A stretch of DNA of 64,000 bases from a virus: positions 1 through 64,000 of the IMG/VR virus record IMGVR_UViG_3300035661_000053. One strand, 5' to 3'. A program made the position numbers and the translations under genes. The notes beneath the pieces are model-generated. The model searched no databases and was not told where the DNA came from. It saw nothing but the letters and a program-made list of their open reading frames with translations. Below, in pieces: positions 12,701-64,000 of this stretch (the stretch's first letter is position 1; each line of letters starts with the position of its first letter).

Positions 12701-15432
12701 TCCGTGTCCAAAGCTGCTGTGGACAAAGTCTTTGCTGAAAGTTTAGCCCTTTTATCCTCGAGGTCTTCAAGTACTTTTACCTCGGCATCATAAAGAGCTT
12801 TTCTTTCTTTAATAGACTGAATGTATTCTCCATCGACCTTTTGGCCTTTATCCCCGGATAGTGCAGCAGCTTGCCGCCTGTCACGTTCCATTGTCATAGC
12901 AATATCACGAGCGTACTCAAGTTGCTTTACCTGCTTCTCAGTTAATTCTGCTTCTTCCTTGTAGTAGTCTATTCTCTGTTTTATAGCATCGGCTGTTGAG
13001 GCTCGCGCTTTTTCTGCTGACTCCTCAGCCTTCTTATCACTCTCTTCCCAGAAGCTCTTCACAGCACTATACACCGTGAGAACACCCGTGAGCAGAGCGA
13101 GCGGGGAAGAAAGAAACATTGCCTTGAGATCAGCCATAAGAGCCTTACCAAAAGACAGCAACCCGTTAAAAGCAGACTGCGCGATAGCAGATAAGGATAT
13201 TTCTTTTGTCTGCATCATAACAGCCGTGGTAATTTCCTCTTGTTGCGCCTTTATTTTATTCAAAACAAGACTCCGTTGTTCCTCAACGAACGAGGCTTCA
13301 ACTTCTTTTGCCGCCTGTTCAGCAACAAGAGACCTTATGCTGCCCTCCCGGTTTGCCCGTTCAGCCAATTGATCGTCATACTTCCGAAGATTCTTTGCGC
13401 CTTTTTCTGTCATCAATGCAGTGGCCTCCCAGCTAAGCGTTCCACGCTCATTTAATGCCTGCGCCTCAGTCATCATCTCAATTTCTTCAGCAATCTGTCG
13501 CAGTTTTGAAATTCGTAATTCAATACCCGCTGCCTCAGTAGCATTACCTTCTTCTAAAAGAATTTCTCTCTCTGTGTCTAAAGCAAGAATGTCAACCTCA
13601 ATAGACTTGACAAATTCTTTCTTTACCGCCTTGCCTATTTCAGCATCAACAATTTGTTCCTGCAATGCAAACTCAGACATAAGCGCCGCGTTGCCTCTTA
13701 TACGTTCAGTAGCCTCCTGCGTGGCAAGTATAAGCTTTTCCTGCATGGCACGAATTTCAGCCTGAGTTGTTCCGACTTGCTGTTCGCCATCAACTAAAAG
13801 TATTTTCTGTCGCTCGACGATCATATTCTGAATAGCCCTTGCTTTTTGGTACAAGGTATTCTTACTTTGTAAAATAGCAAGGTGTTCCTTGTCAATAAAA
13901 AGTTGCTCTTTCATTGTTGTTGGTTTAAGAGTTTCCGCGATATTCTTTTTTATTTGATCGCGAATTTCTGTGGCTTCTTGTAGTTCTTTTTGAAGTTCTT
14001 TTCTCGTCTCTTCATTAGGCTTAAACACGTTTCTTGACAAGAGCCCATTACCACCTATGACATCGTTTTTGAATTGCGCGTTTGCCACGGCTTTATTCGC
14101 GGTAATAAGCAGCTGTCTTTGCCGAATAATCTCATCCACATTATCAGGATTCACACCCGGGATGCCACTATTCATCATACCTGCACGAGTTGGTGTTTGA
14201 CGACCCATGACACCATACATATCTCGTTTTGCCATGCTCTCGATTCTGCTGGACATGTTCGTGGCTTCTTTATTCAAAATGCCCATAGCTTTAGCATGCT
14301 GCATAATTTGAGCAGAGGCAATACCATGCGACTCAGCCCAATTGTCAATTGTATTTTTCATTAGCCTGTTTGACAAAGCTTTACCCGCGGTGAGCATTAG
14401 AAAAGCATTAAGAGAATTCATCATCAAAGAAATAGAATTGTTGACGCCACCAAAAACAGCGGACACCCCTGTGAATAAAGTTTTAATGGGGCTTAGCATA
14501 TGGGACACAAAATTGAGGGAAGTCTCAGAGGTGTGCTTTATCGTGTCAGCAATTTCAATAATTTCTTTCTTATGCTGCTGAACGTAATTGGTCGTCTCGA
14601 TCAAGAATTTCTTTACTTCAGGCATGTAGGTATCACCAACACCCGCCATAACCTGCTGCATGATGTCCCGAAGGTTCTGCATGCGTCCCTGGTAGGTTTC
14701 CATCTGCTTATCCATCATCCCCGCGAAACCTTTTTTCTCGATTATTCGAGGAAGCGCATCAAGCAAGTCCTCAATAGAGGCATCAATTTCCCGTCCCCCT
14801 TTTTTAGTCTTAACATGTAGCTCATCCATGAAATCTTGGTAAGTCACTAGAAGCGTTCTGAACATTCTGAGGGCAATACCCTTCCTTCCTACCGCTAAAG
14901 CCTGAAAAGCAGCCAGAGCCTCCTCCATTGGCTTTCCAGAAGCAGCAGCAAGGTCACCCAGAGACCTCAAGGTATCCAACGAGTACCTACCAACAGCCTG
15001 AAGCTGATTTCCTGCCTCAATAACCTGTGTAACCGAGAAAGGAGTGACCGCAGCGAACTTAACCATTTCCTCAAACCGTTCCCTCGCGAGTTCAGTGTCC
15101 TTGAGCATTACACCAAGAGTTGTCCGGTATTTTTCAAACAGCCCGGAATCATCAAGAGGTGCAGAGATCACGGCCTTAATTTGTGTTACCATGTACAGGA
15201 TACGCTCAAAGGCAATAATGTTAAGAGACCAACCCCTGATATTTGTCTTTATCTCATTTATAAATTTGTTTATTTCAGTGAGATCAGCCTTTGTCTGCGG
15301 GGGGACAACCATATCACGAAGGGCTGAAGCAGAAGTTTGTTTGAGTTCTGTTATTCCGGATTTTATTCTCGTGAAGGCTTGCTCAATATCCTTAATATCA
15401 GCAATGAAACGGACTCCATCCTGTACGGGCAT
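9772..15432 (-). CDS. Tail tape measure protein (1,886 aa)
   Basis: By far the longest gene, placed after the frameshifting tail chaperones and before the tail-tip gene, as in other long-tailed phages. Most of the protein is predicted helical and coiled-coil (long Lys/Glu/Gln/Ala-rich stretches at residues 600-1650). There are hydrophobic segments near residues 760-785 and near 1700-1745 (TAIGVMSALAMLPPNIPLSI). The C-terminal stretch FAEGGLNVNGKG...FIVNAQQTKKHLPLLQAIN is typical of tape measures. At the usual rule of thumb of about 1.5 angstrom per residue, the tail would be roughly 280 nm. The start follows a terminator by about 20 bp, so expression depends on read-through or an unseen promoter. 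Confidence 0.92.
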   Translation of the reverse strand: MPVQDGVRFIADIKDIEQAFTRIKSGITELKQTSASALRDMVVPPQTKADLTEINKFINEIKTNIRGWSLNIIAFERILYMVTQIKAVISAPLDDSGLFEKYRTTLGVMLKDTELARERFEEMVKFAAVTPFSVTQVIEAGNQLQAVGRYSLDTLRSLGDLAAASGKPMEEALAAFQALAVGRKGIALRMFRTLLVTYQDFMDELHVKTKKGGREIDASIEDLLDALPRIIEKKGFAGMMDKQMETYQGRMQNLRDIMQQVMAGVGDTYMPEVKKFLIETTNYVQQHKKEIIEIADTIKHTSETSLNFVSHMLSPIKTLFTGVSAVFGGVNNSISLMMNSLNAFLMLTAGKALSNRLMKNTIDNWAESHGIASAQIMQHAKAMGILNKEATNMSSRIESMAKRDMYGVMGRQTPTRAGMMNSGIPGVNPDNVDEIIRQRQLLITANKAVANAQFKNDVIGGNGLLSRNVFKPNEETRKELQKELQEATEIRDQIKKNIAETLKPTTMKEQLFIDKEHLAILQSKNTLYQKARAIQNMIVERQKILLVDGEQQVGTTQAEIRAMQEKLILATQEATERIRGNAALMSEFALQEQIVDAEIGKAVKKEFVKSIEVDILALDTEREILLEEGNATEAAGIELRISKLRQIAEEIEMMTEAQALNERGTLSWEATALMTEKGAKNLRKYDDQLAERANREGSIRSLVAEQAAKEVEASFVEEQRSLVLNKIKAQQEEITTAVMMQTKEISLSAIAQSAFNGLLSFGKALMADLKAMFLSSPLALLTGVLTVYSAVKSFWEESDKKAEESAEKARASTADAIKQRIDYYKEEAELTEKQVKQLEYARDIAMTMERDRRQAAALSGDKGQKVDGEYIQSIKERKALYDAEVKVLEDLEDKRAKLSAKTLSTAALDTDALKKLSNEISNQRVKVNDLADSYNAAITAKSALIEKTNVLKRLFPDLAAQIDNVGISSSNTSGLLFIINERMAALKQTAIDLRTQMSGLAIDLAIEDVRSYAKSKANKDAIGESKRSYGIFESNSNLSHKLDNIIKPQQEINAEIIKNIDAIPVDATPEQVTNQITAIATSLRKRIDNENSKGIISLFKQFLGGVYSTKEGKLDEDKYKEAIKSAFGVDFVDISSLGDFEKTDYVQDIIDRYNKDLAQVTMLESKRIAVNNALVNSVKIAEKPTVPNDEDKVPKDKYNDDPLTKELKEFKLQASIMTEQYNHLASTLMEMSASMASLGNSDQLIKRLTAPQTEIEKTFKEGVQDYSKKVLEKIAELKKFKARALANTNRDFGFRQANEIDQMLKQAEAENFKLQMLPYDNMVNRMKEDLSAAEIRFYSAGTPEEKATEQKTMIEMQNKYREAKEDHTARIRQLIDEGRKNGFSFVQIEVLYDMLTKDLKENAATQKKTSDLEAEITNLSGSADSIMKAYESLEDKKEKLRERILSNYATTPEQKAKELENLKNTSQAGINKLFTVEEQKAADIEAEVNIDRLSKLVESMGEDSQDYKHLFNATEKIEAEKSLIRAQYDKKIADIRAKQEEEEASIADILKKRKDYEKGNSGVPLSPEETKRANLYDRNTAARNAQIIALSKDKDKETDKVDKKSMLSKFNTTKDFLDRITSAFNTYFEWKKQKITDEVETWKKAQEVILTNEENSAMRFATTENQKERVRQQFEIRKQQLDKEAEQRKHAALKKDWEISHALAMAQIVTNTAIGVMSALAMLPPNIPLSIIIGATGATELAIAASQTPPKFAEGGLNVNGKGISYLPKGLFRGVGGEKDDKNLVLLSDNEFIVNAQQTKKHLPLLQAINDGFANGGLFGGGIKTDLYAMNFSANTSALHSELKDMNKNLTKHLENPVRPILIIDKYTAGEIAGIGIQEMKRGAGL

Positions 15433-15450
15433 TTCTTATGATCTTTCTAT

Positions 15451-15484
15451 AAATAAAAAAAGGGTTATCCTAAGATAACCCTTT
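15451..15484 (-). terminator. Rho-independent terminator between tail chaperones and tape measure
   Basis: Perfect 8-bp stem gggttatc (15462-15469) / gataaccc (15474-15481), extended by three A-T pairs, with a 4-nt loop. On the minus strand it is followed by a run of T. It lies between the end of the long chaperone frame (15503) and the tape measure start (15432), and would lower tape measure expression relative to the tube and chaperones. Confidence 0.85.
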
Positions 15485-15502
15485 GGTGCAACTGAATGCA
15501 AA

Positions 15503-16128
15503 CTAGCTTTTGTACATGTGTATCGAATCATATATCTCGTTGAGCCTTTCGACCTTCTTCAGATATAGGGTGTAGAAGACTTCGCCTACTTTGCTTTTAC
15601 GTATTGCCTGATACTTTGTCACATCACCATCTGATAGTTGGTATAGTAGTTGTCTCGTTGCATTTGCCGCTATTTTTGGTTCGTATACTTCTGGGAGGTC
15701 ACCCTTCTTTTTTAGCTTTAGCTGACCACTCGCTAATTTTATTCGTTCATCAACTTCTTGAAGGAGTTGATTAAAGTTGTTATCAAATCCTTCCTTCCAG
15801 ATAAAAAATCCTGTAGCACGCTTGCTATCGACTTGTCGCCGACCTTCTTGAAATCGTTTTTGCGTAAGTCAGCAAATTCAGGCTCCCACTCCTCGCACAC
15901 GTCATTTTCATCCACGCGTACCAAAAGAATAGCAAGAGCCTGACCTATGACGCCTTGCTGCATGAATTTCATAAAGAGTGCGGTGATTATTTGCCACGCG
16001 TCCGTTATGTCCCCTGAATCCAAAGACAGATCAAGTTTTGTTAGCATTTCGCTGATAGCCGTATATTGCTCCAGAGATATTTCTTCGGGCAGAACGTAAG
16101 TGAAATCTTTTGTTTTAATTTTTTGCAT
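15503..16128 (-). CDS. Tail assembly chaperone, long form by -1 frameshift (208 aa)
   Basis: Reading the short chaperone frame to the slippery heptamer at 15802-15808 and then moving back one base gives 109 + 99 residues without a stop until TAG at 15503-15505. The extension starts IWKEGFDNNFNQLLQ and ends YDSIHMYKS; it is charged and helical. The layout (tube genes, short frame, overlapping -1 frame, tape measure) matches the G/GT-type tail chaperones of long-tailed phages, which bind the tape measure while the tube polymerises. The extension has no ATG near its 5' end, supporting frameshifting rather than separate initiation. Inferred from sequence; not proven. Confidence 0.8.
15739..16128 (-). 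CDS. Tail assembly chaperone, short form (129 aa)
   Basis: A 129-residue, mainly helical protein (MQKIKTKDFTYVLPEEISLEQYTAISEML...) that precedes the tape measure gene by one overlapping frame. This is the normal zero-frame product; the last 20 residues (SGRKDLITT...LMNE) are replaced in the long form. In related phages the short form is made in large excess and coats the tape measure during assembly. It lies 35 bp downstream of the 384-aa tail-tube gene. Confidence 0.8.
   Translation of the reverse strand: MQKIKTKDFTYVLPEEISLEQYTAISEMLTKLDLSLDSGDITDAWQIITALFMKFMQQGVIGQALAILLVRVDENDVCEEWEPEFADLRKNDFKKVGDKSIASVLQDFLSGRKDLITTLINSFKKLMNE
15802..15808 (-). promoter_or_regulatory. Slippery heptamer T TTT TTA for -1 frameshift
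   Basis: Minus-strand reading in the chaperone frame is CAG GAT TTT TTA TCT; the heptamer T-TTT-TTA is in the right phase for the classical X XXY YYZ tandem slip. The -1 frame is open from here to 15503. I could not fold the downstream RNA to look for a stimulating structure. Confidence 0.8.
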
Positions 16129-20265: not shown

Positions 20266-21303
20266 TTAACTTTTAGAAGGAACCTTCGCCATATTTAGCA
20301 CTTCAGATACAGGATTCACTACCTCTGCCGCGGGCAATTGCTGAACAGCCACCGGGGCCAGGGCAGACCGTCCTTGCAGGAGATCACCAAATAAAGTGGC
20401 AAGAATACCCGTGCCTTTTGACCCGGTAGCTTTTATCTCGATAGATTGCGTGTTGTCTGAATTTAGATTTTCAACATTAAACATAAGCTGGGATAGTACA
20501 CTTATCTCGTTTGTTAAATTCTTGTCAAGAACGCCACCATCAATTTTCTCATTCAGGACTGCACGCATAACACGCTCCTTTTGGATATTAACAAGAACAC
20601 GCATACCAGTTTTAGTATCACTAAAATCAGTATCCAGCGAAAAATTAAAAACGCAAGATTGATTCACCACAAATTTAGGGCACCGTCCAGCAAGATAGCA
20701 AGTGTTGCAAACAATGAGGTCATCCTGTAATAACGGGTTGGCTTCTATCTTCCGCACCTCGATCGTCTGGGAACCTCCTTGACTTTTAAGCTCACGGGTA
20801 AGCATGTTGAAACAATGATTGTAGAATTGCTTCTTTGTCACGCATAAACCACAGTCACGGGGACAGTCTGTGCCATTTTTTTCATGCGTTGTGAATAGCC
20901 ATTGTCTTGCTTCTTCATTTGAAGGAGAAAGGAAGAAAGATTGTATTTCACCTTCTGTCTGTATCTGATAGAATTCTACTGGATTCACAACGAGTTTATC
21001 AACCTTCTTTTGTATGACAGTATCCTTCTTCCCCTCGTTACAAGAATGACAGAGCGTCTCCAAATTCGTGAGGTCATTTGTCCCTCCAGCTGAAAGCGGC
21101 ACAATGTGATCTATTACCAATTCTACCGTGGGATCAGTTTTTGGAGATGCACCGCAGCGTTTACAACGATGCTGATCTCTTTCAAGAATCTCGAACCTTA
21201 ACTTGTGAGTTATCTCATTACGAAGCTTTTTCTTCTCCTTCGTGGTTAATTTCTTGCTGTCTTCTTCTGCTTGCTTCTTTTTCTGCTCTTTAAGTGTTGC
21301 CAT
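20266..21303 (-). CDS. HNH endonuclease with cysteine-rich extension (345 aa)
   Basis: Residues about 30-95 form a textbook HNH module: C47xxC50, the DH pair at 65-66 (VIDHIVPLSAGG), DLTNLETLCHSC with C85xxC88. A second cysteine cluster follows (CPRDCGLC near residue 145), then CNTCYLAGRCPKF near residue 200 and a helical region (QKERVMRAVLNEKIDGG). The last 60 residues are Ala/Pro-rich. The start at 21303 is the first ATG; it overlaps the DpdA stop by 14 bp, so the gene is the last of the modification operon. It may be a homing-type or packaging-associated nuclease. The C-terminal part recalls small-terminase-like proteins, but I cannot establish this. Confidence 0.75.
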   Translation of the reverse strand: MATLKEQKKKQAEEDSKKLTTKEKKKLRNEITHKLRFEILERDQHRCKRCGASPKTDPTVELVIDHIVPLSAGGTNDLTNLETLCHSCNEGKKDTVIQKKVDKLVVNPVEFYQIQTEGEIQSFFLSPSNEEARQWLFTTHEKNGTDCPRDCGLCVTKKQFYNHCFNMLTRELKSQGGSQTIEVRKIEANPLLQDDLIVCNTCYLAGRCPKFVVNQSCVFNFSLDTDFSDTKTGMRVLVNIQKERVMRAVLNEKIDGGVLDKNLTNEISVLSQLMFNVENLNSDNTQSIEIKATGSKGTGILATLFGDLLQGRSALAPVAVQQLPAAEVVNPVSEVLNMAKVPSKS

Positions 21304-22282
21304 TTTCTTCTTTCTTTTTCTTTCGTCTACCACGTCGGCCTTTCGGCGCAACCTTTGGTGCTACACCGTGCATTACTTCAAGCTCATTTGGTGTACACAT
21401 GTAAAAAGGATTCGTTTTAATGAAATCGCGTTCTGCTTCAGTGAGCCACCATTGTCTATTCAGTGTTCTCCTGTTAAAATTTTTCTCATTCATAAGCCAA
21501 GCATTGATATTGAATTTATTCACCTGCCGAGTATTATCATCCATGAATTTGCCAAAGTCAACACCCCATTTATGGCAGGTACGAAATTGCTGTCTACGAA
21601 TAGCTTCCTTCTTCGTGTAATCAATCGTCTCAAAGAAACTCCCATTCCAGACATATGTGATGCCATATTTACCACCACTAAAATACGTGGTTGAATCAGC
21701 ACTAAACAAGGGAAATTTATCAAATGACACGAAGTTTGTCATAGCGAACCCATGAACCAATTTCCTGTACCTGTAGGAGAGATTGTATACTTGCTCAAAG
21801 TATCCAGTATCAGTTTTTGAATTGATACCACCTGATGCACCTATAAAGTTATAACGATCAAAGTATTCGTAAAGATTCTTGTATGGTAGGCTATAATCGT
21901 GAGTGACATAGCAGACTCGCTGACCTTCTTTCTCCAATTGCTCAAATTCTTTATTCCAATCATAGACCTGTTTGTCCCCCACAAGCAGGTTAACATCATA
22001 GTTAGCGACCCAAAAGAGTCTCCCAATATACTTGGATGCGAAATTGAGATAGTCTGAAAGATATTTGACATGGTTAATTTTCTCGTGATTATCTTGTGCT
22101 TTTGAGAACATGGTGAAAGCCCCAGAATCAAGAACAACGAGAGGAAACATATCGAGAACTTCGTCAAAGGGAACACCCTTGTCAATAATATAGTAATAGG
22201 ACATCAGGACTTTCTTGACTCCCGCGCTATAGCAATCATTCCTGATCTGCCTGTCTTCCACACCCGCGAATATTAATTCCAT
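21290..22282 (-). CDS. dpdA: DpdA-type DNA 7-deazaguanine transglycosylase
   Basis: A 330-residue tRNA-guanine-transglycosylase-like protein of the DpdA group, which exchanges guanine in DNA for a preformed 7-deazaguanine base. The first active-site aspartate lies in LDSGAFTMF (D52) and the second in FPLFSADSTTYFSGGKYG (D196). The FIGASGGI and KLVHGFAMTN segments match the barrel strands of the family. The C-terminal 25 residues are a very basic tail (KGRRGRRKKKKEE), suitable for DNA binding. All precursor-pathway genes (FolE, QueD, QueE, QueC) are present nearby, so the phage should be self-sufficient for preQ0. The subfamily (DpdA1-4) cannot be decided by eye. Confidence 0.85.
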   Translation of the reverse strand: MELIFAGVEDRQIRNDCYSAGVKKVLMSYYYIIDKGVPFDEVLDMFPLVVLDSGAFTMFSKAQDNHEKINHVKYLSDYLNFASKYIGRLFWVANYDVNLLVGDKQVYDWNKEFEQLEKEGQRVCYVTHDYSLPYKNLYEYFDRYNFIGASGGINSKTDTGYFEQVYNLSYRYRKLVHGFAMTNFVSFDKFPLFSADSTTYFSGGKYGITYVWNGSFFETIDYTKKEAIRRQQFRTCHKWGVDFGKFMDDNTRQVNKFNINAWLMNEKNFNRRTLNRQWWLTEAERDFIKTNPFYMCTPNELEVMHGVAPKVAPKGRRGRRKKKKEENGNT

Positions 22283-57499: not shown

Positions 57500-58342
57500 T
57501 TAGTTTATTGGTGGCGTACTTGATACATCAGGTGGCTTTATCATCGGGGTAGGGGGTGGAGCAGTCGCAGCACCATTTCCTTTTATTTCCACTGGTGAAG
57601 TATTAACTGGATGATGAACCGGTCGTTTCGTGGGTGCGGTTTTTGTTGAGTCAACCTGCATTGCTTGTGGTACGGGTATTTTTTTTGTTTTTACTGGCAT
57701 TGTTGGTGTTCCTTGTAATGGTATTTGACAACCGAGCAATCGCTGAATATTTGTTATATCTGTTTCTGTTTTACGCGTCTGTTTTGTATTGTCATAGATT
57801 GTACAGTGTAATATAGCATTATTTGACAACGATTGCACTACTCTCCAATAATGTCTTGGAAGGAGAATTCGTATGTCACTATAATAATATGTAAGGATGC
57901 AATCTTGGTAGCTTATTCCAGCAATGATCCATAAACTATCAGATTGACTTTCTTGCCGATTTAGAGATTCATCAAGTTTCCATATTATTCGGTTAAGGTT
58001 TGGTGTTAGAGGCACCGCATCGTAGTATTTAAAAGTGCTATTCGTTAAAGCGCATGAGTCTGCAAAATCCTGAATGCCTGCTAAATGACCCCTATCATAG
58101 CCGAGGATTGCGCGGTTTATATTTGCTGCGATGTAAGTATTCGTGTCTACTTGAAAGCCCATAGTATCACGGTTACATGAGTCGCTCGCGTGCCAAAGCT
58201 TGAAGGTTACGAAAACTGGAATTTGGTATTTCCTGTTGTAATAGGATTTGTAGCTGCCCCGGTCGATCACCGTATCATAGGGTGCTTGCGCGAATGCGCT
58301 GAACAGCAAGAGGATTGAGAAAATGAATGTTTGGAGTTTCAT
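57500..58342 (-). CDS. Exported DNA/RNA non-specific endonuclease (NUC1 family)
   Basis: A signal peptide (residues 1-20, FIFSILLLFSAFAQA) precedes the nuclease domain. The catalytic motif is GYDRGHLAGIQDF (DRGH at 83-86), followed by the metal-binding Asn in DAVPLTPNLNRIIWK. From about residue 210 the protein is a Pro/Thr/Lys-rich tail, probably disordered. Enzymes of this family degrade DNA and RNA outside the cytoplasm. In a phage this could destroy incoming DNA of competitors or digest extracellular nucleic acid after lysis. Confidence 0.85.
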   Translation of the reverse strand: MKLQTFIFSILLLFSAFAQAPYDTVIDRGSYKSYYNRKYQIPVFVTFKLWHASDSCNRDTMGFQVDTNTYIAANINRAILGYDRGHLAGIQDFADSCALTNSTFKYYDAVPLTPNLNRIIWKLDESLNRQESQSDSLWIIAGISYQDCILTYYYSDIRILLPRHYWRVVQSLSNNAILHCTIYDNTKQTRKTETDITNIQRLLGCQIPLQGTPTMPVKTKKIPVPQAMQVDSTKTAPTKRPVHHPVNTSPVEIKGNGAATAPPPTPMIKPPDVSSTPPIN

Positions 58343-58884: not shown

Positions 58885-58965
58885 TTAATAATCTGCCGTT
58901 CTTTCTCTTTTAATAAACGTGCAACTTACGAAATCTATTTTTGTAGCAGTTTCATTTTTATTCAT
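58885..58965 (-). CDS. Possible very small peptide (26 aa)
   Basis: An ATG inside the last codons of the methyltransferase gene opens a 26-residue frame (MNKNETATKIDFVSCTFIKR ...). The coupled start is the only support; it may be noise. Confidence 0.25.
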   Translation of the reverse strand: MNKNETATKIDFVSCTFIKRERTADY

Positions 58966-59806
58966 TATCATCTCCGTCCATAAATGATAATGTGTCATTA
59001 TTATTCACGGGTAAATAATTAGTCCAAAGAGCTTCTCTTTTTTCTGCTTTTGAAGAATTTATCTTTTTTAATGGACCAAACGAGACATTCCAGTCTCCGT
59101 ATAGCTCCGACATTAAGTCACACTCATAACCAGAAACAGCAACCTTTCCTTTAGCTGAATGCAAAGCTTTTGATAACTCTTTATGGTCGGGATTCTTCAT
59201 TTCATATTTATAAGCATTTGAATCTGATCTTGATTCGTGAGGGTATGGTGGGTCGCAATAAAAAAGAGTATCCGGGCTATCAAATCTTTCTATAACTTCG
59301 AGCGCGGGTCTATGTTCGATTTGAACTCTTAGTAATCTTTGTGAAATTTCTGATAAACCCTCAACACTTCCAAGCCATCTAGAAACAGCACCCGCCATTC
59401 CCGCTCTACTAGTCAAAAGACAGTGCGCCCATCGACCACCACTTGCCTTTTGAGCGAGTCCGGTTCTGACCTGTCTGGCTCTAATAAAAAATCGTCTAGC
59501 CCTCTCCATTTCGCTTATATCAGCATCTATCGTTGAGGAAAGTTCAAATTCTTCTCTAGAAAAAGGAGTCAGTCCAATTTTTTCTATTAATTCATCCTTA
59601 TGGTCACGCAACACTTCAAAAAAATTTGTTATGTCGCTGTCTAGATCATTAAAGGTTTCAATCGGGGAGGGCATTCTATTTAAAATAACAGCGGCTGAAC
59701 CACCAAATGGTTCACAATAGTGGAGTGTTTTTGGTAATAATGGTAATAGCCACTCCAAATGACTGAATTTGCCACCGTACCAACCAAAAGCTATTTTTTT
59801 TGTCAT
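58958..59806 (-). CDS. D12-class N6-adenine DNA methyltransferase (Dam-like, 282 aa)
   Basis: SAM-binding motif I is HYCEPFGGSAAVILN (residues 30-43) and the catalytic motif IV is LFYCDPPYPHES (DPPY at 185-188). The N-terminal FGWYGGKFSH and DLDSDITNFFEVLRDH complete the D12 pattern. The target is probably a short adenine-containing site, GATC being the most common for this class but not established here. It can protect phage DNA from restriction. It lies 128 bp downstream of the Type III Res gene. Confidence 0.88.
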   Translation of the reverse strand: MTKKIAFGWYGGKFSHLEWLLPLLPKTLHYCEPFGGSAAVILNRMPSPIETFNDLDSDITNFFEVLRDHKDELIEKIGLTPFSREEFELSSTIDADISEMERARRFFIRARQVRTGLAQKASGGRWAHCLLTSRAGMAGAVSRWLGSVEGLSEISQRLLRVQIEHRPALEVIERFDSPDTLFYCDPPYPHESRSDSNAYKYEMKNPDHKELSKALHSAKGKVAVSGYECDLMSELYGDWNVSFGPLKKINSSKAEKREALWTNYLPVNNNDTLSFMDGDDNE

Positions 59807-59933
59807 AAAACTCCTAAAATTAAATACAAATACAACCTTTTAAGAAAAATAAGTTAAAAACAAGAATATTTGACAGTTTTTTATCATGTATAAAATGAAT
59901 TTACAAGGGACAGAAAACAGTACCATTGGTTAA

Positions 59934-62522
59934 TCAAAAAACTCGATTGTCCATTTTCGAATATATGGTACTACCAATCAGAGTGGTCGCCTTTTCGCTA
60001 TTGATGAGTCTTGATACCTCCCTTATAAAACTCTCTGGATTTATCCTGAAATTCGCGAACGTTGATTTTTTTATTCCCTGCAAAATCTTCACAACTGTTT
60101 TGCGGGTTAAATTGGTTTCCTTGACAATTTTGGTGATAAGATCATATTTAAGAGCACCCAGTAAAGACCCCGTTCTTTTGACAACGTTTTTCTTTTTCGT
60201 CATGCTTTCGCCTGATTTTAGACTGGATTCATCAATCTGATCTTTTTGTTCTCCTTCTGTAATTATTACAAGAGCCTCTTTCACTTCTAATTTGGTATCA
60301 AGCGCGTTAATAACCTTTTCAATCAGTTCTTCGCTATTAAAATCAACCTCATAAATTGTTTTTGCTTCAATCCTGTTCCATAAGTCTTGGGATTCCTTCT
60401 TCACGAAGTTAGAGTTAGCTTGTAATGCCACTTCATTAATGTTGTTTTCTTTCTCGTTATCAGCAGCCTTAAAATTAGCCGTGGTATAAATACTTTGTAT
60501 TAAGTCAATTACTGCCTCTTTGAAGTCCATTAATTCTTCAGGAAGTTCGACTCTATCCACTTCAACGTCTTCAATAAATTGGTCAGTAATTTTGTATTCT
60601 TTATCCACGTACCCCTTTATCCTGAAGGTAAGAATCAAATCCATTGCCTTCTGATTGTCAAATACAAGTTTTTTTCCTTCCCTATTCTTCAGAATATGAC
60701 CAACCAATATACCTGTGGTTAATTTAGTGGGTCTCTCGGAAAGAGATTCCACAATTTCCTTTTGCAGATCACGGGCGAAACTATCATAAGACTCACTGGC
60801 AATAACGGTAAGCGTGTTAAAATTGAAAAATTCGTGCCCTAATACAGAATAATCCATTCGTTCCCCGGTATTATTGACACAAATTCGCAAGCCCCTGCCT
60901 ATTTCCTGCCTCTTACTAATCGTGGACTGGCTATGCTTAAGTGTGCAAATTTGGAATATATTCGGGTTGTCCCAGCCCTCCCGAAGAGCAGAATGAGAAA
61001 AGATAAATCTTGTTGGCTCACCCAAGCTTAACAACCGCTCTTTGTTCTTCATTATCAGTTCGTAGGCGCCCCCATCGTCACTTCCACCTTCGGTTTTCTT
61101 TTCGGTAGAGTCAATAAATTGTCCTTTTTTATCAATTGAGAAATATCCCTCGTGTATTTCTTCTACAGAATGAAGATTCAGGTAATCATTATAATCTTTT
61201 TCAAACGGGCTTTGCTCTTGTATCGCCTTTCTGTATTCATCTTCAAATATCAACGCGTATTCACCCTTTAACGGGTTGTTATTATCATCATAGGCCCGGT
61301 ATTTGGCTACTTCATCAATGAAGAATAATGACAATACCTTAATCCCCTTCCGGTAGAGCATTCTTTCTTTTTCGATATGAGATTTTATCGTTTCCCGTAT
61401 CTGGATTCTTCTCACGTGTTCCTCGTCAACATCTCCAATGGTTTGCCCTGCATGAATTTCAACCCCGTTGGTAAACACGACCCTGTTTTTCAGCCCATTA
61501 ATTTCTCTAACAATAAAACCCTTGTATTGAGCTAATTTACCAGAGTGCTGATATAAGTCATCCTTTTCCGAAATATGCTTAATTACTTTTTTTATCCCAG
61601 TTTTTTGATTAACCTCCATTTCAATGAATGCGGTTGGATAATGCTTTGAACTTATTTGTACCCGATCCAGAAACAGATAACTGTTTGTGCCACTATTCCT
61701 TATGACTTCAATCCCTTTTACGTTTATCCTTTTCACAAGTTTCTGATTATACGCGTCAATTGCATCGAGGCGGTAAATTTTATTGTAATCTCTTTTATGT
61801 GTAGCGGAATAGCGAAGATTAAAGAGCGGGTTAAATTCATGAAGAAGCGATTCCGCTTTGTCTCCAAAGCGCTGTGGCTCATCAATAATAAGTATCGGGC
61901 GAGCCCTTTTGATTATATCTATCGGTTTTTCAGACTGAATACTATCTAACTTTTGATAGATTTTCCGAGATTCTTTGCTTTTCGTGGCAAATGCCTGGTA
62001 ATTCATTATAATTACTTCTATGTTAGAAGTATTAGCAAAGTTCTTGATATTCACCAGGTTGGATTTGTTCCGCGCGTTGTAAATAGTAAAGCGAATCTTT
62101 TTCCCGTAAATTTCCTGAAAATGATCGGCTGTAATTTCCAGAGACTTATGAACGCCCTCTCGAATTGCAATAGAAGGAACCATTATGATGAATTTACTCC
62201 ATCCGTAATGAGCATTTAATTCATACATGGTTTTGGTGTAGACATAAGTTTTACCCGTCCCGGTCTCCATTTCAATGGTGAAGTTCATCCCCTCTAATGC
62301 CTTATTGACCTTTAACCCCTGATCCTTCTGAACCTCCCGAATGTTTTTAAGTAGTTCCTCGGGGGTTAGATTCAGTTTTTTATTTGAAAATATTTCATCG
62401 CCGAATAACCCGTGTCTTCTGACAAGTTCTTCGCGTTTCCCTTTGGACTGACCAATGAAACAGTTAACTACTGCCATTGTTGCATCAAACTGATATTGTT
62501 GCTGCTTGAATTTTAATTTCAT
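59934..62522 (-). CDS. Type III restriction enzyme Res subunit, C-terminal nuclease missing
   Basis: An SF2 translocase with Walker A IEMETGTGKTYVY (GTGKT at 88-92), motif II ILIIDEPQRFG (214-217), FSHSALREGWDNPNIFQ and motif VI QEIGRGLRICVN. The N-terminus MKLKFKQQQYQFDA is a normal Res start. Type III Res proteins usually run to about 950-1,000 residues and end in a PD-(D/E)XK nuclease; this one has 862 residues and stops (SKMDNRVF) just after the helical FIREVSRLINSEKAT region. No nuclease frame continues in the 128 bp behind it. It starts 1 bp after the mod stop. Confidence 0.85.
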   Translation of the reverse strand: MKLKFKQQQYQFDATMAVVNCFIGQSKGKREELVRRHGLFGDEIFSNKKLNLTPEELLKNIREVQKDQGLKVNKALEGMNFTIEMETGTGKTYVYTKTMYELNAHYGWSKFIIMVPSIAIREGVHKSLEITADHFQEIYGKKIRFTIYNARNKSNLVNIKNFANTSNIEVIIMNYQAFATKSKESRKIYQKLDSIQSEKPIDIIKRARPILIIDEPQRFGDKAESLLHEFNPLFNLRYSATHKRDYNKIYRLDAIDAYNQKLVKRINVKGIEVIRNSGTNSYLFLDRVQISSKHYPTAFIEMEVNQKTGIKKVIKHISEKDDLYQHSGKLAQYKGFIVREINGLKNRVVFTNGVEIHAGQTIGDVDEEHVRRIQIRETIKSHIEKERMLYRKGIKVLSLFFIDEVAKYRAYDDNNNPLKGEYALIFEDEYRKAIQEQSPFEKDYNDYLNLHSVEEIHEGYFSIDKKGQFIDSTEKKTEGGSDDGGAYELIMKNKERLLSLGEPTRFIFSHSALREGWDNPNIFQICTLKHSQSTISKRQEIGRGLRICVNNTGERMDYSVLGHEFFNFNTLTVIASESYDSFARDLQKEIVESLSERPTKLTTGILVGHILKNREGKKLVFDNQKAMDLILTFRIKGYVDKEYKITDQFIEDVEVDRVELPEELMDFKEAVIDLIQSIYTTANFKAADNEKENNINEVALQANSNFVKKESQDLWNRIEAKTIYEVDFNSEELIEKVINALDTKLEVKEALVIITEGEQKDQIDESSLKSGESMTKKKNVVKRTGSLLGALKYDLITKIVKETNLTRKTVVKILQGIKKSTFANFRINPESFIREVSRLINSEKATTLIGSTIYSKMDNRVF

Positions 62523-62523
62523 T

Positions 62524-64000
62524 CTATATCACCATAATGACTGTTTCCGGAGAAAGTCTTTTGAAGCGTTTTTCTACATTAATTTTATCCTTGTCATACG
62601 CAAAACACGCGTCCTTAAAGACCATTTTGGAAGGTTTCATATCAGCAATCACGTTCACTATACTAAAATTAATGTTGTCATCAAAACACGCTACAAGAGC
62701 GTTTTCCTGAACGACAAGCACACTATTTCCAAGAATTTCACGCTTATCGATCGATAAAGATAATTCCAGACCAAGATCAAGCATCACCTGGGTAAGTAAA
62801 TCTTCCGGTGTTCTGTCTTCCTTAATATTGCTCTCGAATGCCGATAGTTGTTCTTGTGTTATATCCATCGGGTGATAAAAAGCATCCTTCATGTTGCTTG
62901 AATCAGTCTTGTATACTCGGAACCCAATATCGAGATTTTTAATGTGCTCAATTTTTAATTCGAGTTCTGACTTCTTTTCCCTCAGTTCTTCGCTCCCAGC
63001 TAAGGTTTTGTATTTTAATTCACGATTGATTTTCGTGAGTTCGATTTCACGCTCTTTCAAGTATTCATCTTTTATTCTCCTCCCCGCGCGTCGAATTCTT
63101 TCTTTGCCTATCTCTGATACATTTGTTGGTTTTCCCAGAGAATTTAGAAATTTAATGCTGGCTAATATTCTCTTCTTCTCGTTCGCATCCCTCGCCTTTT
63201 TTTCGTCAAGTTCTTCCTGTAGTTGCACTAAAATATATTTCAACTTTGAATGATTCTCAATATTGAACTGATAAACCGCCTCCGCGGTCGTTGCTGATCC
63301 GGCAAAGAAATCAAGAACTATATCATTTTGTTTGCAAACAAAATTTATCAAGTATTTTATTAAGCTAACTGGTTTTGGGTAATCAAAATAATATCCACCA
63401 AGCAGCTCAATTAACTCACTTGATGCATTTTCATTAGTGCCCACACCATTCTCTTTCTTATTTATAAGAGGAGATGTGTATTTTTCCTTGATATAATTCG
63501 TTGGTCGCTTATACCCTTCTTCATCTCTAATAAATCTAATTGATAGTTTTTCGGATTTTATTAAAAATTTTGTTCCTTTCTGTATCTCGGCATTAAGGAA
63601 ATCCTGTGTCCACTTAAACTCACCCTCTAAAATAAAATCGCTCTTTGAATAGCCGTCATGAATAATAATGTCCTCGCTCAATGTTACTCTATCATACAGC
63701 CCGGCTGCTAATTTCCCATTAGGAAATTTATCTTTTCTAAAATAAACTGATTCTTTTGGAAATTTCAGAGCAACAACTGAATTCCCAGAATTTAATAGTG
63801 GCTGGTCTCCTCCATCCAATAATTCTCCGTTATATTTTTGGGAATTTTTATATTTTTCATAACACAGTATGTATTCATTTGTCTTTCTTGATTTAGTTGA
63901 AAGTGCGGGTGGAGTTGAGGTCTTAACCCAAGAGAATATTTCGACAAAATTTTCCTCCCCGAATGTTTCGTCAAGAATTGCTTTTAAATTTTTAAGCTCT
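62524..64000 (-). CDS. Type III DNA methyltransferase Mod, 5' end beyond window
   Basis: About 491 C-terminal residues are visible; the frame is open to the window edge with no ATG needed inside. The segments EENFVEIFSWVKTSTPPAL, LDGGDQPLLNSGN and FPKESVYF are standard Mod text. SAM motif I is DIVLDFFAGSATTAEAV, which in beta-class enzymes follows the DPPY motif that should lie just outside. A long coiled coil (residues encoded near 63000) and C-terminal PEDLLTQVMLDLGLELSL complete the family pattern. With Res it forms a Type III restriction-modification operon; Mod alone methylates adenine and fixes sequence specificity. Confidence 0.85.
   Translation of the reverse strand, partial: ELKNLKAILDETFGEENFVEIFSWVKTSTPPALSTKSRKTNEYILCYEKYKNSQKYNGELLDGGDQPLLNSGNSVVALKFPKESVYFRKDKFPNGKLAAGLYDRVTLSEDIIIHDGYSKSDFILEGEFKWTQDFLNAEIQKGTKFLIKSEKLSIRFIRDEEGYKRPTNYIKEKYTSPLINKKENGVGTNENASSELIELLGGYYFDYPKPVSLIKYLINFVCKQNDIVLDFFAGSATTAEAVYQFNIENHSKLKYILVQLQEELDEKKARDANEKKRILASIKFLNSLGKPTNVSEIGKERIRRAGRRIKDEYLKEREIELTKINRELKYKTLAGSEELREKKSELELKIEHIKNLDIGFRVYKTDSSNMKDAFYHPMDITQEQLSAFESNIKEDRTPEDLLTQVMLDLGLELSLSIDKREILGNSVLVVQENALVACFDDNINFSIVNVIADMKPSKMVFKDACFAYDKDKINVEKRFKRLSPETVIMVI

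Follow-up and report, generated by a model that had tools for sequence, protein, structure and literature searches.

What does a Type III restriction-modification locus do for a phage when its restriction subunit ends ahead of the nuclease? The question is raised by IMGVR_UViG_3300035661_000053, a viral record of 72,277 bp, the first 64,000 nucleotides of which form the window. An earlier note on this DNA had read one long ORF as a Type III Res with a complete ATPase/translocase that stops 100-130 residues early, and had offered two functions for the locus, a methylation-only remnant or a translocase with a new role. This ORF, whose product we call window Res, is listed with the other features in Table 1.

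Table 1. Features of the locus and its record, in window coordinates unless marked.
Feature	Position	Strand	Length and evidence
Type III Res without nuclease domain (window Res)	59934..62522	-	862 aa; ORF, profile ends, alignments, model
Window Res, RecA-like motor	residues ~1-600
Window Res, helical spacer	residues ~601-850
Window Res, short non-homologous tail	after residue 858		NRVF
Type III Mod	62524..64000, on to record position 64614	-	696 aa; PADLOC MTase_III, Pfam N6_N4_Mtase
Gap, expected site of nuclease-coding DNA	59807..59933	.	127 bp; no homology to nuclease domain
D12-class (Dam-like) DNA adenine methyltransferase, next gene downstream	58958..59806	-	282 aa; Pfam MethyltransfD12
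DNA/RNA non-specific endonuclease, downstream of Dam-type gene	57500-58342		Pfam Endonuclease_NS; apparent N-terminal signal sequence (by eye)
ORF with N-terminal HNH endonuclease region	20266-21351		C-terminal stretch matches phrog_887 (queuine tRNA-ribosyltransferase)
EcoRI-type methyltransferase, just beyond the window	record 64722-65687 (L056:9723-10688)
Two adjoining genes, alike by eye	record 69737-70994 (L056:14738-15469, 15411-15995)		one with a weak YfbR-like 5'-deoxynucleotidase match, below curated cut-off
ORF cut by the record end	record 71825-72277 (L056:16826-17278)	+	PDFVLFD...IELKLKNW, PD-(D/E)XK-like by eye; no Pfam or PHROG match

The claim of a complete motor was borne out. 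The 862-codon ORF contains neither a stop nor a frameshift, and in alignments all motor motifs are intact (METGTGKT, DEPQ, SATH, RQEIGRGLR), with Walker A/B and motif VI of an SF2 helicase-like ATPase present together with the helical spacer. Pfam detected ResIII and DEAD. NCBIfam NF012027 matched residues 1-859 over profile positions 1-825 of 986, and PADLOC REase_III matched residues 1-860 over positions 1-841 of 989; both profiles are covered from position 1, and the missing part is therefore C-terminal only. In a phmmer search of the PDB, window Res matched EcoP15I Res (4ZCF chain C, E=3e-64), and the same chain was the best fold match (E=1.3e-32) of an AlphaFold model of medium confidence (mean pLDDT 72), in which the last helix spans residues 829-850 and confidence is very low over residues 852-862.

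Homology of the relatives to window Res ceases near residue 858. Those with an intact Res, 53-80% identical, extend 141-149 aa beyond its end, and these extra residues include GNYNPDWAIV...YFIAETKG, the PD-(D/E)XK signature. The early stop claimed by the note thus stands, although the deficit is slightly larger than it had estimated. Alignment with the EcoP1I Res of phage P1 placed window residue 858 at EcoP1I 848 and the last window residue at 852, and in this alignment the PD and ETK motif residues (D898, E916 and K918 in EcoP1I) fall beyond the end of window Res. In the EcoP15I crystal structure, RecA1 spans residues 7-269, RecA2 366-594 and the helical spacer 620-810, and the endonuclease domain, disordered in the crystal, follows the spacer (PMC4490356). 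Taken together, the EcoP1I alignment and the EcoP15I domain limits indicate that window Res consists of motor and spacer and ends in the linker. A divergent nuclease inside the 862 aa was not found, as motor and spacer account for the whole of the 858 homologous residues. Judged from these alignments, window Res stops at the spacer/nuclease junction, a truncation exactly on a domain boundary.

Could the nuclease be encoded nearby? Neither the 127-bp gap nor the 72,277-bp record yielded a match to the nuclease tails of ten relatives by tblastn, a tail HMM or short-word blastn. In a genome search, the tail of the closest relative of window Res (L002) matched neither this record nor that of a second nuclease-less case described below (L167); as a positive control, the same query found matches in two control records. 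The gap holds neither a frame nor DNA resembling the domain, in agreement with the earlier note, and a Res-type tail encoded by a different gene in the record was rejected on the same searches. We also considered a frameshifted end, since by eye the tail GTTTTTTGATTAA could have arisen when one base slipped within a run of T. This was ruled out: the other frame hits TAA at once, and no nuclease DNA lies beyond. The defining C-terminal PD-(D/E)XK nuclease of Type III Res is thus absent from the protein, the gap and the whole record, and because of this absence the pair is an incomplete Type III restriction system. ATP-dependent cleavage at two inverted unmethylated sites is not expected without the domain, and on its predicted domain content the mod-res pair is a restriction-deficient variant of a Type III restriction-modification system.

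The partner subunit is full length. PADLOC MTase_III covers residues 1-693 of the 696 of Mod, and motif alignment identified the catalytic motifs DPPYNTG and FFAGSATT (FxGxG-like). The genes lie in the order mod then res on the same strand, with the mod stop ending at 62524, 1 nt ahead of the res start codon at 62522. Similarly tight spacing occurs in L055, a locus with a complete Res and the closest Mod (66%); similarity of Mod to most other relatives is about 50%. Upstream of mod are genes for an EcoRI-type methyltransferase, an N6/N4 methyltransferase and an SNF2-like helicase, and with the Dam-type gene the record holds three further DNA methyltransferase genes beside Mod. The record is viral, with terminase, portal and major head protein genes and replication genes for a DNA polymerase, primase, DnaB-like helicase and UvsX-like recombinase; a search of it for a tyrosine integrase found none.

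A second contig, IMGVR_UViG_3300036715_003265 (L054, which recurs as L107 in the viral scan), has the same Res end with the exact junction. Its match to the window's record spans 10.5 kb, within which mod, res, dam and the gap are free of any difference, and 61 differences lie elsewhere, 60 clustered at record 64977-65469 and one at 57674. Since the junction is identical in a contig that differs elsewhere, a simple assembly error is unlikely. As a separate observation, the 60 clustered differences (36 synonymous, 24 nonsynonymous) all fall in the EcoRI-type methyltransferase gene, as if one allele had been exchanged; an error at the contig end would be another possible cause, the gene being close to where L054 starts. 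Terminase and Mod queries for relatives of the phage itself returned only this twin contig.

How common is such a loss? We scanned the viral collection by three alignment searches, taking the best 80 matches of each. The first gave 79 loci, 6 of them too close to a contig end (L113, L142, L143, L160, L162 and L172); among the matches listed, 71 of the 73 judgeable loci had a nuclease tail, the two exceptions being the twin contig and L167. Among the matches listed in the second scan were 5 more contigs, all with the tail, and the third listed 25 more P1-like contigs in which the P1 Res match runs through the catalytic residues, the tail being read here from match ranges and not by HMM. Altogether about 103 viral contigs were judgeable among the best 80 of each scan, and the nuclease was absent only in the twin and L167. 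The genome collection gave 52 loci with relatives, up to 80% identical and including bacterial assemblies: the tail was present in 48, two loci end with the contig, and two (L018 and L027) are broken within the spacer. The latter two are the same element, a bacterial Type III Res that breaks near residue 736, with unrelated sequence beyond. A literature search for phage Type III Res proteins lacking the nuclease found no report, which, with partial coverage, is weak evidence.

L167 (IMGVR_UViG_3300020213_000041, 49,874 bp) encodes a Mod of 694 aa and a Res of 836 aa, which ends in RTKRLALVDDMRDKERA, a few residues ahead of the window Res break point and at the same domain boundary. In L150, the nearest relative of L167 (76%), the nuclease is complete. 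The two truncated proteins are only about 36% identical and each has closer nuclease-bearing relatives, and we therefore regard the losses as independent. L167 Res also lacks 13 spacer residues, including an otherwise conserved Trp, and its last residues resemble the stretch of L150 just past the ETK motif (15 bp at 93%, E=0.17), which would fit an internal deletion but does not prove one. On its record we found genes for an integrase, a DNA polymerase, a primase and helicases but, within the part read, none for a structural protein, and it may therefore be a prophage or a mobile element of another kind.

We also looked for altered constraint in the truncated proteins. Compared among nine sequences, window Res differed at 15 of the 108 spacer columns that are otherwise invariant, whereas the others did so at 2-5%. 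With 20 sequences, this spacer excess did not reach significance (Fisher p=0.075), and the window Res tip branch had a spacer/motor ratio of 1.79, no more extreme than the values of relatives; we dropped the idea of a relaxed spacer on this result. For L167, this test showed no excess (p=0.55). In the motor, the tip branch of window Res does not differ in length from those of relatives that have the nuclease, and is close to the longer among them. In dN/dS comparisons, synonymous sites proved saturated with every relative, and mod, res and dam are identical in the two near-identical contigs. In the 20-sequence tree, with synonymous sites saturated, we saw no signs of a decaying pseudogene in the truncated res, and likewise none of functional retention since the truncation. 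The ORF may be young rather than useless.

Based upon these results, we favour, at a probability of about two in three, a module that only methylates and so protects phage DNA, beside a Res remnant presumably unable to cut. A tailed phage would have taken up the mod and res genes of a bacterial Type III system, and the nuclease domain would have been lost through a deletion where spacer and nuclease meet. Mod dimers would then modify the phage DNA at an asymmetric site, methylating one strand only, and host restriction enzymes of the same specificity would spare this DNA. The truncated Res may still bind Mod but would not cut, and the module would leave both the phage DNA and the host unrestricted. 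In this reading the res ORF would be a tolerated remnant, possibly still forming complexes. We prefer this reading because Mod is intact, the record has three other methyltransferase genes, a second contig shows the same loss, and the Mod of EcoP15I/EcoPI is a stable dimer that works as an independent methyltransferase without Res (PMC4005696). The independent loss in L167, the bacterial cases of res inactivation with mod retained (PMC2667262) and a truncation at the boundary, ahead of the catalytic residues, count for it too. Against it, an 862-codon ORF with an intact motor exceeds what methylation needs.

That intact motor leads to the best-surviving alternative, an unlikely one, in which Mod2Res1 is still active without the nuclease. 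Such a complex would bind at unmethylated sites and, driven by ATP hydrolysis, translocate briefly, evicting proteins or blocking incoming DNA uncut, somewhat in the manner of BREX. Window Res retains all motor motifs on a motor branch of ordinary length, and in two unrelated lineages the cut fell after motor and spacer, so that both retain them. However, a 2024 model of EcoP15I makes the nuclease lobe part of the DNA clamp for sliding (PMC11142916), and the window complex may therefore hydrolyse ATP without sliding. In addition, the loss of 13 spacer residues with the conserved Trp in L167 looks like decay, and nothing points to an old truncation. It is correspondingly improbable that phages keep nuclease-free Mod-Res as an ATP-driven DNA-remodelling methyltransferase, for example one that clears bound proteins so that methylation is easier, or one that excludes competing phage DNA uncut. 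The earlier note's new-function translocase thus found no positive support, and its methylation-only remnant is the better supported of the two.

Highly improbable is a poison subunit, a truncated Res that occupies the Mod of a similar host Type III system and blocks restriction. Mod does stabilise Res (PMC3874151; PMC4005696), and bacterial assemblies do contain intact relatives of up to 80% identity, but the phage's own Mod would bind the truncated Res first, and Mod is only about 50% similar to most relatives. Finally, the nuclease end could have been lost in assembly or be encoded outside a record that, as a virus contig, may be a fragment; we give this very little credence, given the junction shared with the otherwise differing twin, the gap running directly into the Dam gene in both contigs, and the lack of any split Res in our survey of Res loci.

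If the methylation-only reading is right, a single deletion can turn a defence system into a device by which a phage marks its own DNA. In window Res, nature has separated the Type III motor from the nuclease, and a phage Res that ends exactly ahead of the nuclease lobe is material for testing the EcoP15I clamp model (PMC11142916). The nuclease-less Res is cleanly delimited, repeated once and functionally modest.

Among known systems, the locus shares with EcoP15I and EcoP1I a Mod with DPPY adjoining Res on the same strand, and a Res with an SF2 motor and helical spacer. Phage P1 too carries its Type III system, but its Res, of 970 aa, includes the catalytic residues that lie past the end of window Res. 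Phage orphan DNA methyltransferases likewise modify without restriction, and the locus resembles them in being carried by a phage with several other methyltransferase genes, but here a motor-bearing Res remnant stands beside the methyltransferase. BREX combines a site-specific methyltransferase with a probable DNA motor and does not need cutting (review PMC12707154); no homologous gene set was seen in the window's record, and the likeness is one of principle only. The nearest precedent is bacterial, the phasevarion mod genes of Haemophilus and Neisseria, in which res function is lost, in one case by a 250-aa in-frame deletion, and mod is kept (PMC2667262). Those genes are bacterial and have a proposed role in gene regulation, whereas the pair described here is phage-borne and its loss falls exactly at the nuclease boundary.
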